Shown here piece after piece: positions 4,909 through 8,296 of a stretch of 40,893 bases of DNA. Position 1 is the first letter of the stretch. Every line of letters starts with the position of its first letter. The position numbers and the translations under genes were made by a program. The notes under the pieces were generated by a model. That model worked only from the letters and a program-made list of their open reading frames with translations, did no database searches and had not been told where the DNA came from. Origin of the DNA: a virus; the IMG/VR virus record IMGVR_UViG_3300032401_000027, positions 1 to 40,893 of that record, one strand, 5' to 3'.

Positions 4909-6372
4909 ATGGTTAAAAAACTTGATAAAATTTATATAAGAGAAAGGATAGACTTTTTAAACACCTTAAAACGTAGGGGAAGTACTCAACTCGTTTCAAA
5001 AGTAGGGGATACTCAAAAAGGTATAGATTATTTTAATGAATTAAAGATACATTTTAGAAAACAAGGGTATTCTAATACACAAACAAAAAGAATGTTAGGG
5101 GTTTTGTTAGGAGAAAAAAAACTTATTACCTCTGCACTTGTTAAACGTAAACTAACCCCTTGTGTGTTTAGAAAAGATATGTTAAGTACATATAAGAAAT
5201 ATTACCCTATTTACTTAACTGCTTTACACCCTGCAAACTATTTTACTACTTTAACAAAACTTTCAAAAGATAATACATTACTCTTTGATGGGCTTAAATT
5301 TAGTATAAGAGAGCATATAGTCCCAACAGGCAACATACATTATAAATTGTATGATGATTTAGGGCTAGAAATAAGAAAGAATGTATTACATAGTTATAGT
5401 ACAAGAATACAAGAATTTATACAGGATTTAAAATATAAAACAGAAGATGAAAAAGGTTTAATAAGTAGTCCATTAGATTTTGATTTACAGATGTTAAAAA
5501 TACCTAAAATAGATAAAACTTTATATTTAGGTATAGAATTAGAAGTAGGTAGGAGATATAATTCACCTCATGATTTAGTTTCTAATGTGATAAAGGATTT
5601 AAACCCTAACAGAATAGAAAAAGGTACTTATGAATTTGCTTTTATAAAAAGTGATTCTTCTATCCCAATTGAAGTTTTTGGTTTTGAGATTGTATCAGCA
5701 CCAGCTACACTAGCTTATCATTCTACTGCTTGGAATAGATTTTTTGAAAATAGTGCAAACTATTTAAGAAGCTATACAATAGAGAAATGCGGGATGCACA
5801 TTCATTTGTCAAGAGATGCTTTTGGTGCGGATAAATGTAGCTCTAAATTACATCAAGGGAAATTTGTAAGGTTTTATAATATGGCTTCTAATAAGAAATT
5901 TTTAGAAATGATTGCTGGAAGAGTACAAAATAATTACTGTATTACTCAAGACTCTAAAAAAATCACTAAAGTAGTAAAAGTACAAAAAACTAATAATAAA
6001 AAAGAGCTTCTACTTTTAGGACAAGGGGAAGAAAGAAATGTTGCTGTTAATTTGTTAAATACTACTACTTTAGAGGTTAGAATTTTTAAAGGTAATTGTA
6101 AAAAAGAAGGATTCTTTAAAAATATAGAGTTTGTACATTCAACTTTCTATTTTACTTTACAAAGTGGTGTTTCAGAAAAATCTTTAAACTATGAAACTTA
6201 TTTAAAATGGTTAAAAGAGCCTTCGCAAAAAGGCACTTATCCTAACTTACTTAAATGGTTAGTAGCAAGGGAAGAAATAGAGGTTAAACATATTAATTTA
6301 ACTAATAAAATTAATAGAAAAACTAATGGTAAACAAAGCTTATTAAAAGATTATATACAATCAGTAGCATAA
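4909..6372 (+). CDS. Amidoligase-like enzyme (Amidoligase_2 family)
   Basis: The C-terminal two thirds carry the signature of the putative amidoligase family, COOH-NH2 ligases with a glutamine-synthetase-like fold: GIELE at 208-212, KCGMHIHLS at 293-301 (H297, H299), and a VNLLNTTTLEVRIFKGN strand with E389 and R391. Members are predicted to join a carboxylate to an amine using ATP. The first 200 residues are helical and unrecognised. The gene sits 13 bp before a class II glutamine amidotransferase, a pairing described for this family. The pair probably makes or consumes an amide on a small molecule, peptide or wall component; the substrate cannot be read here. Start supported by AAAGG. Confidence 0.75.
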   Translation: MVKKLDKIYIRERIDFLNTLKRRGSTQLVSKVGDTQKGIDYFNELKIHFRKQGYSNTQTKRMLGVLLGEKKLITSALVKRKLTPCVFRKDMLSTYKKYYPIYLTALHPANYFTTLTKLSKDNTLLFDGLKFSIREHIVPTGNIHYKLYDDLGLEIRKNVLHSYSTRIQEFIQDLKYKTEDEKGLISSPLDFDLQMLKIPKIDKTLYLGIELEVGRRYNSPHDLVSNVIKDLNPNRIEKGTYEFAFIKSDSSIPIEVFGFEIVSAPATLAYHSTAWNRFFENSANYLRSYTIEKCGMHIHLSRDAFGADKCSSKLHQGKFVRFYNMASNKKFLEMIAGRVQNNYCITQDSKKITKVVKVQKTNNKKELLLLGQGEERNVAVNLLNTTTLEVRIFKGNCKKEGFFKNIEFVHSTFYFTLQSGVSEKSLNYETYLKWLKEPSQKGTYPNLLKWLVAREEIEVKHINLTNKINRKTNGKQSLLKDYIQSVA

Positions 6373-6385
6373 AGGATAAAAAATT

Positions 6386-7390
6386 ATGTGTTTAATTCTC
6401 CAACTAAATAAAGAAAGTCAAATAACAGAAGAACAATTTAAAAAGAATTTAGAAAAAAATTCTGATGGCACTGGAATAATGTTTGCTAATAACAATAAAA
6501 TTATTGTTAAACGTGAAATAGATTCTAAAGATAAGCAAGTAAGTTTGTTTACTAAATATGTTAAAGCTGTAACTGAAACAAAGTCTTTGAATGAAGTTTT
6601 TATACATTCACGGTTTGCCACGCATGGCAAAAAAGATTTATTAAATTGTCATCCTTATGAAGTTTTAGCAGGTAATACTAAACAACCCGAACTTTATTGT
6701 ATGCACAATGGAATAATTGGCACTGTTGATTTAGTAGAAAAAGATAAGTCTGATACATTTAATTTTTTAAAGTATTATGTTAAACCTTTGTTAGAAGGAA
6801 GAATTAATTTATTACAAAATTCACACTTTCAACAAATGCTTAGTAAATATATCGGTATTGTAAGTAAACTTGTTTTTCTTGATTCCACAGGTTTAACTAC
6901 TTTTATTCATAAAGAACAAGGTACTATTTACAAAGGTTGTTGGATAAGTAACACTAACAGCGGTATAAGTACAGCAGATGATAGTAGACAAACTAATAGT
7001 TATAATAATTACAGTTACTTTAATAATATAAAAAAAGAGGAGACTACGAAGAGTTCAGTGAGTATTATTTCTATGAGTTCTACTAAAGATGTTACACCTA
7101 TTAAAAGGGATTTAAATGTCTTTGAAGAAAAAAAAGACCCTGATGCAGAAGTATCCGCCCAATGTGTTACTTCACATAAAGAACCGAACACAAATTGGTT
7201 TGATGAAGAAATGGGAGAAGAAGTAGAAATTGAAGCAATTACCATAGCTAATAGTATCCCTTTAGTTTGTACCGCATTATCTTTAATGGATGATAAAGAC
7301 ATACATAAGTTTACTTTAGAAAATCCAATATTAGCTGCTGAATGTTTAAGCCATTTAATTTCTAACAGAGAAATAACTTTTAAAGTCTGA
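6386..7390 (+). CDS. Class II glutamine amidotransferase-like (Ntn hydrolase)
   Basis: Begins Met-Cys, so Met removal would expose the catalytic N-terminal Cys. Further class II hallmarks are HSRFATHG (74-81) and MHNGIIG (106-112), as in GlmS/PurF/YafJ-type glutaminase domains that release ammonia from glutamine. The glutaminase domain spans about residues 1-200. The remaining 130 residues begin with a Ser/Asn-rich linker (about 200-240) and end in an acidic helical segment without a recognised synthetase domain, so the acceptor enzyme is probably the adjacent amidoligase. Ribosome site AAAGGA. Confidence in fold is high; partner and product are inferred. Confidence 0.8.
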   Translation: MCLILQLNKESQITEEQFKKNLEKNSDGTGIMFANNNKIIVKREIDSKDKQVSLFTKYVKAVTETKSLNEVFIHSRFATHGKKDLLNCHPYEVLAGNTKQPELYCMHNGIIGTVDLVEKDKSDTFNFLKYYVKPLLEGRINLLQNSHFQQMLSKYIGIVSKLVFLDSTGLTTFIHKEQGTIYKGCWISNTNSGISTADDSRQTNSYNNYSYFNNIKKEETTKSSVSIISMSSTKDVTPIKRDLNVFEEKKDPDAEVSAQCVTSHKEPNTNWFDEEMGEEVEIEAITIANSIPLVCTALSLMDDKDIHKFTLENPILAAECLSHLISNREITFKV

Positions 7391-7708: not shown

Positions 7709-8233
7709 ATGTTTAAAAAAGTAAAACAAGAAGCTGTAAATGTTCAAGATGCCGTTTCAATTAAAGTAGTGTTTGATGATATGGTGACAAGTGGCTTACA
7801 AAACAAAGCAAGTGTTGTATTAGGTGACTTTGTTCGTAAAGACACTGAAAGACAAATAGCTATTGCAAAATTGAAAAATGACATTAAAGAAGTAGAAAAA
7901 ACTATTCTAACTTTTGAAGATGAAATTAAAAAAGAAGAAAGTAAACTTGAAAAAGCAGAAAAAGTATCTAATCAAGCAGGTATTGCAAGAACAATTGCAA
8001 TTCTTAAAGCTGATATTGCTAAATTTAAAGTTGATATTGATGTACTTAATGCTAAAATCGTTAATCTTGAAACTTTAAGAAGTGCAGCAGCAACTAAAAG
8101 AGATTCATTTATAGTAGCTTTTGATGAAAATCCTTTTGATGCACTAGCTAACACTGATTTAGTTAGAGAAGGGCTAAACATTGAACAAGTAAAATTTAAC
8201 AAAGACACACTAAACATTCTTAACGCTGAATAA
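7709..8233 (+). CDS. Coiled-coil protein, 174 aa, own promoter and terminator
   Basis: Long heptad-rich central region (about residues 45-130: KLKNDIKEVEKTILTFEDEI and following) flanked by short globular ends. The tail (FDENPFDALANTDLVREGLN) is less charged. A perfect promoter and a strong terminator immediately flank it, suggesting high, independent expression. It uses AAAGG before ATG 7709. No family recognised. It might be a structural or host-interacting protein; nothing in the sequence decides. Confidence 0.65.
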   Translation: MFKKVKQEAVNVQDAVSIKVVFDDMVTSGLQNKASVVLGDFVRKDTERQIAIAKLKNDIKEVEKTILTFEDEIKKEESKLEKAEKVSNQAGIARTIAILKADIAKFKVDIDVLNAKIVNLETLRSAAATKRDSFIVAFDENPFDALANTDLVREGLNIEQVKFNKDTLNILNAE

Positions 8234-8259
8234 TTTAGAAGTTAATTTAACAATTTTAG

Positions 8260-8296
8260 AGGTTACTTACATTAGTGAGTAACCTTTTTTGTTTTA
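8260..8296 (+). terminator. Rho-independent terminator
   Basis: An 11-bp stem, AGGTTACTTAC (8260-8270) with GTGAGTAACCT (8275-8285), loop ATTA and one G-T pair, followed by a T-run (8285-8290). It ends the coiled-coil gene and lies just inside the right inverted-repeat arm. Confidence 0.9.

Follow-up and report, generated by a model that had tools for sequence, protein, structure and literature searches.

Among the systems closest to the locus described here, the context of the amidoligase family was reportedly set out in Iyer 2009, where peptide-modifying roles are said to have been predicted. For the amidoligase and class II glutamine amidotransferase (GATase) genes of phages phiEco32 and RIO-1, the published guess is modification of peptidoglycan precursors and superinfection exclusion (PMC5498523; PMC10580990), whereas for the pair of mycobacteriophage Marvin an idea centred on secondary metabolites has been put forward (PMC10580990). 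The same source reports pairs of the type found in phages MEP401 and MEP402 from over 30 genomes of related viruses, in connection with the Zobellviridae (PMC10580990). No substrate, product or activity is reported for any member in the published descriptions consulted.

The window analysed here is the whole stretch of 40,893 bp of an IMG/VR virus record; it has 32% GC, and exact repeats of 20-399 bp are absent from its ends. The sequence-only reading had pointed out two adjacent genes separated by 13 bp on the + strand, and their coordinates, lengths, strand and gap (6373-6385) proved to be exact. The features needed for the discussion are the following:

4909-6372, + strand: predicted amidoligase of 487 aa, a glutamine-synthetase-like carboxylate-amine ligase of the Amidoligase_2 type (profile, homologues, Foldseek)
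4909-5508, + strand: variable N-terminal region of the amidoligase, residues 1-200, mostly with low pLDDT (AlphaFold; CxxC comparison)
5518-6273, + strand: glutamine synthetase (GS)-like catalytic domain, residues 204-455 (residue columns in 76 homologues; AlphaFold pLDDT mostly 75-98)
6373-6385, + strand: intergenic gap of 13 bp with an AGGA-type ribosome-binding sequence (sequence)
6386-7390, + strand: predicted class II (Ntn) glutamine amidotransferase/glutaminase of 334 aa (profile, Foldseek, invariant residues)
6386-6979, + strand: GATase II core, residues 1-198 (AlphaFold pLDDT mostly above 90)
6980-7390, + strand: C-terminal extension of the GATase, comprising a linker modelled as disordered at about 202-287, then a short bundle of helices at 284-327 (AlphaFold)
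7628, 8447, 10163, 13099 and 16545, + strand: sigma-70 promoters without mismatch (TTGACA-17-TATAAT), all five on the rightward arm

Scans of IMG/VR with the window amidoligase or GATase as single proteins returned no relative, and alignment-based scans were therefore required. In phage records, tblastn revealed the adjacent pair in the Methylophilales phages MEP401 and MEP402, podovirus ctgrD200 and mycobacteriophage Marvin, and alignments of these proteins were used for IMG/VR scans giving 80 loci per bait. Among 168 sequences searched, profiles iterated over these loci detected the amidoligase in 164 and the GATase in 154. With leave-one-out profiles made from 85 representative phage pairs, the window being excluded, both proteins were recovered (E=1.7e-57 for the amidoligase and 2.2e-50 for the GATase) and no match was obtained in reversed or shuffled window ORFs; the motifs of the window are therefore not due to chance. 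The proposal that profile searches would detect both families held for these leave-one-out profiles, but it failed for Pfam and NCBIfam, where the 487-aa protein had no match at E<1 and the 334-aa protein remained below the GATase_4 cut-off of 23 (7.8e-4, 18.9 bits), with GlmS models at about 1e-5. The GATase of ctgrD200 passes that cut-off with 26.7 bits.

The product of 4909-6372 is a glutamine-synthetase-fold amidoligase with intact catalytic residues, its activity being predicted from sequence and model. The motifs that first drew attention to this gene are present as GIELE (208-212), CGMHIH (294-299) and LEVRIF (388-393), and the catalytic domain comprises, besides GIELE, D249-S251, E260, GxHxH (295-299), R338, N381 and ExRxF (389-393). 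Misalignment of the catalytic residues had been named as a possible flaw; E210, E212, D249, E260, E389 and R391, as well as H297, align and are invariant in 76/76 sequences. The Amidoligase_2 model PF12224 is matched by 62 of the 76 aligned homologues (E<=0.01), and its cut-off is exceeded by relatives at three loci (L004, L006 and L007), while a search of the whole record up to E=10 found no PF12224 match in the window; the window protein has diverged too far for PF12224 itself to recognise it. In PHROGs it falls in an unnamed phage family (8e-22). When its AlphaFold model was compared with the PDB by Foldseek, 49 of the 50 matches listed belonged to the GS superfamily (best 1.2e-6), including glutamine synthetase, gamma-glutamylmethylamide synthetase (GmaS), YbdK, Dop and glutamate-cysteine ligase (GCL), and the sole other entry was HMG-CoA reductase at low probability. 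The best match in the viral structure library BFVD was annotated as 'Amidoligase enzyme' (5.5e-17). At least one CxxC lies N-terminal of the catalytic domain in 64/76 homologues, whereas the window protein has none.

The product of 6386-7390 is a class II glutamine amidotransferase of the Ntn fold with its residues intact, and here too the activity is a prediction. The expected motifs were found as MC (residues 1-2), HSRFATHG (74-81) and MHNGIIG (106-112). The predicted nucleophile is Cys2, N-terminal after removal of Met. C2, R76, N108 and D123 align without exception in 74/74 sequences, which again disposes of the feared misalignment, and N108-G109 is conserved. By the alignment with GlmS made here, these four residues correspond to its catalytic and glutamine-binding residues. 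The protein falls in an unnamed PHROGs family (1.9e-6), the family profile matches GlmS in the PDB at 1.7e-12, and the Foldseek matches of the model include the glutaminase domain of GFAT/GlmS (about 5e-7) and PurF. C-terminal tails are also present on relatives, with a median of 110 aa and varied sequence. Whole-chain TM-scores are low for both models (about 0.25-0.45), which is in keeping with the uncertainty of the N-terminal and C-terminal regions, so the fold claim rests on the catalytic domains.

The two genes are inherited together as a pair and are nearly inseparable. Among viral loci with room on both sides, the GATase accompanies the amidoligase used as bait in 68/72, and the four loci lacking it all come from one C. 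difficile phage group; with the GATase as bait, the amidoligase is found in 76/76 loci with room. The amidoligase precedes the GATase in 60/68 and 72/76 of these pairs, and most gaps range from -10 to +42 bp; the short gaps and the prevailing order suggest translational coupling. No ORF fusing the two proteins appeared among the loci examined for pairing. Patristic distances in the two trees are correlated (r=0.60; 0/2000 permutations equal, the highest being 0.26), with a value inflated by phage relatedness and physical linkage; since shared ancestry and linkage contribute, the correlation speaks for co-inheritance and not for contact, and it could reflect a common pathway without a shared complex. 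The near-obligate linkage and the tree correlation uphold the idea of a functional pairing of amidoligase and glutaminase.

Related to this, two loci (L008 and L009) hold the closest relatives of both window proteins, and no relative of the window terminase was found in their records. Conversely, Celeribacter phage P12053L and the Lentibacter phages, to whose terminases that of the window is 63% identical, were absent from the amidoligase matches in phage records. On these grounds the pair moves between phage backbones.

Some loci depart from the usual arrangement. In the C. difficile phage group (L006:5683-6795; L065, L066, L068 and L074) the amidoligase is kept with no GATase nearby, and therefore the ligase fold is not always GATase-dependent. 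Two Amidoligase_2-like ORFs lie near one GATase at four loci (L012, L013, L120 and L148). In a Bifidobacterium phage (L172:2676-4079) the annotated start of the GATase omits the MC start, and the ORF 5' of it is a weak amidoligase match which, as annotated, resembles a C-terminal fragment.

With regard to the wider module, the amidoligases and GATases of phiEco32, LUZ24 and RIO-1 are recognised by the profiles (1e-8 to 1e-13), and the ATP-grasp gene of the phiEco32/RIO-1 cassette lies near the pair in 21 of 88 representative loci. An ATP-grasp gene also accompanies the amidoligase and the GATase in Rhizobium phage RHph_N3_13, and L009 also carries PF14395 (COOH-NH2_lig) and PF06094 (GGACT) genes. 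Phage C75C1 (L173:4001-4897) encodes a GATase joined in one protein with a gamma-glutamyl cyclotransferase domain, with an amidoligase upstream; the fusion is annotated as cyclotransferase only. ATP-grasp, COOH-NH2 ligase and gamma-glutamyl cyclotransferase had no match in the window, whose record may be incomplete, and a search there for a cyclotransferase, an ATP-grasp or a further ligase that might have been overlooked was equally negative. Of the module, the window has the minimal two-gene core.

The pair stands in the rightward arm, followed by genes for ribonucleotide reductase (RNR), primase-helicase, DNA polymerase, Cas4-like exonuclease, RusA, metallophosphoesterase and thymidylate synthase, whereas the structural genes run leftward. 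The terminases closest to that of the window are those of SIO1/cobavirus phages, and no integrase was found among the window ORFs scanned; for these two reasons the lytic lifestyle assumed from the sequence is plausible. The source phage is probably a marine Zobellviridae-like podovirus. Sigma-70 sites with at most one mismatch number 7 against 0.84 expected, a count reached in 0/100 shuffles. Two of the five perfect promoters are located inside ORFs (RNR alpha and primase-helicase), and a terminator-like 13-pair stem followed by a T run is found at 8258-8287, just 3' of the 174-aa gene (7709-8233). As the pair precedes the genes for nucleotide metabolism and replication, its products would probably be made early.

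Like the identity of both families and their functional pairing, the broad proposal that the two genes form amides is supported, and the reading that we favour, with some reservation, is a two-subunit glutamine-dependent carboxylate amidotransferase. In this scheme the glutaminase would hydrolyse glutamine via Cys2, the ammonia would pass to the amidoligase, and the latter, using ATP and Mg2+, would convert a carboxylate into an acyl phosphate and then into a primary amide. Points against this reading are that no amidoligase-GATase fusion was seen and that the C. difficile phage group keeps its amidoligase with no GATase close by. Amidation of wall precursors driven by a class II GATase has a precedent in AsnB/LtsA, which act on meso-DAP. 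The likeliest single target, proposed only tentatively, is a cytoplasmic cell-wall precursor, so that the envelope would be altered after infection; the carboxylate would be that of D-Glu or meso-DAP in UDP-MurNAc-peptide or lipid II. The main alternative target with the same chemistry is a free host metabolite.

The strongest rival, although improbable, is a scheme similar to that of EgtA/EgtC, in which the GS-fold enzyme would gamma-glutamylate an amine, or join two substrates, and the GATase-fold protein would act as a hydrolase taking the gamma-glutamyl group off again at a later stage, with no donation of ammonia. The GS fold does include the gamma-glutamyl ligases YbdK, GCL and GmaS, EgtC structures appear lower among the Foldseek matches of the GATase (about 1.4e-3), and the co-occurrence of cyclotransferases with the pair, one of them fused to the GATase, favours this scheme a little. 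Nevertheless, in profile and fold the matches of the GATase to the true glutaminases GlmS and PurF are better by several orders of magnitude, and the window lacks a cyclotransferase. The pair might instead amidate or tag a polypeptide of the phage or of its host, perhaps a small protein encoded alongside, as would agree with the prediction reportedly made in Iyer 2009 and with the presence of Dop, a GS-fold enzyme acting on Pup, among the fold matches. This is a less probable explanation still, given that the pair has no conserved small protein beside it. The acidic 40-aa protein and the helical neighbours had been suggested as substrate or carrier, and this suggestion was rejected: in about 167 related loci no relative was found for the 40-aa protein, for those of 108 aa and 197 aa encoded upstream or for the 174-aa protein encoded downstream, nor do the 197-aa and 174-aa proteins have one in 50,697 phage records. 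The Pfam matches of these small neighbours are all below cut-off and were taken as chance, and the short ORFs 3' of the GATase in MEP401 and MEP402 seem, by eye, unrelated to the 40-aa protein.

It is quite unlikely that the pair acts as a helper of nitrogen metabolism, raising the nitrogen assimilation of the host as has been claimed for phage ZRK32. Growth effects are described, at whole-phage level, for a phage with amidoligase, GATase, cyclotransferase and glutathione synthase genes (PMC10945688), but the glutaminase consumes glutamine and therefore no net nitrogen is gained. The lowest probability of all, a very small one, is given to modification of DNA bases or nucleotide precursors through amidation. 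Genes for RNR and thymidylate synthase are indeed nearby; such nucleotide-metabolism genes, however, are common in marine podoviruses without the pair. Besides, no base-hydroxylating, 7-deazaguanine, kinase or glycosyl gene for DNA modification was found among the window ORFs scanned, which speaks against the earlier mention of a DNA base precursor as target.

Returning to the amidotransferase reading, a possible though rather doubtful extension of it is that a phage-borne, ammonia-donating GS-type amidotransferase produces an undescribed primary amide on a host metabolite or a precursor of the host envelope. The core of two genes would then suffice, and ATP-grasp, COOH-NH2 ligase and cyclotransferase would be optional additions to one mobile pathway. 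The two-gene form separates core amidation from the accessory ligases and is therefore the simplest version in which to seek the product. Phages that infect marine methylotrophs, pseudomonads, mycobacteria or rhizobia have such pairs, as do many uncultured viruses, and some copies, that of the window included, are missed or barely detected by standard models.

Pairs of this kind have already been described (Iyer 2009, phiEco32, Marvin, OM43 phages). The pair of MEP401 and MEP402 (OM43/Methylophilales, Zobellviridae) resembles that of the window in genes, order, strand, adjacency and a place close to the beginning of the rightward arm, with identities of 27% for the amidoligase and about 30% for the GATase; however, the MEP amidoligases have an N-terminal CxxC zinc-ribbon-like region that the window protein lacks, and the neighbouring genes differ. 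The phiEco32/LUZ24/RIO-1 cassette contains homologous amidoligase and GATase genes and shares one mobile module with the window pair, which is likewise adjacent and on one strand, but the full cassette is absent: COOH-NH2 ligase, ATP-grasp and gamma-glutamyl cyclotransferase are added in the former and all three are missing from the window. In Marvin (cluster S), gp105-gp106 are an adjacent amidoligase and GATase as in the window, although identities are 24% and 21%, the phage is of another type and both its proteins have zinc-ribbon-like cysteines. Fold and catalytic residues are those common to PF12224 Amidoligase_2 and to the GlmS/PurF glutaminase domain. What is new here is a divergent member, below Pfam detection for the amidoligase and without the usual zinc-ribbon region, to which the counts showing near-obligate linkage, together with the fusion of GATase and cyclotransferase, add something useful though modest.
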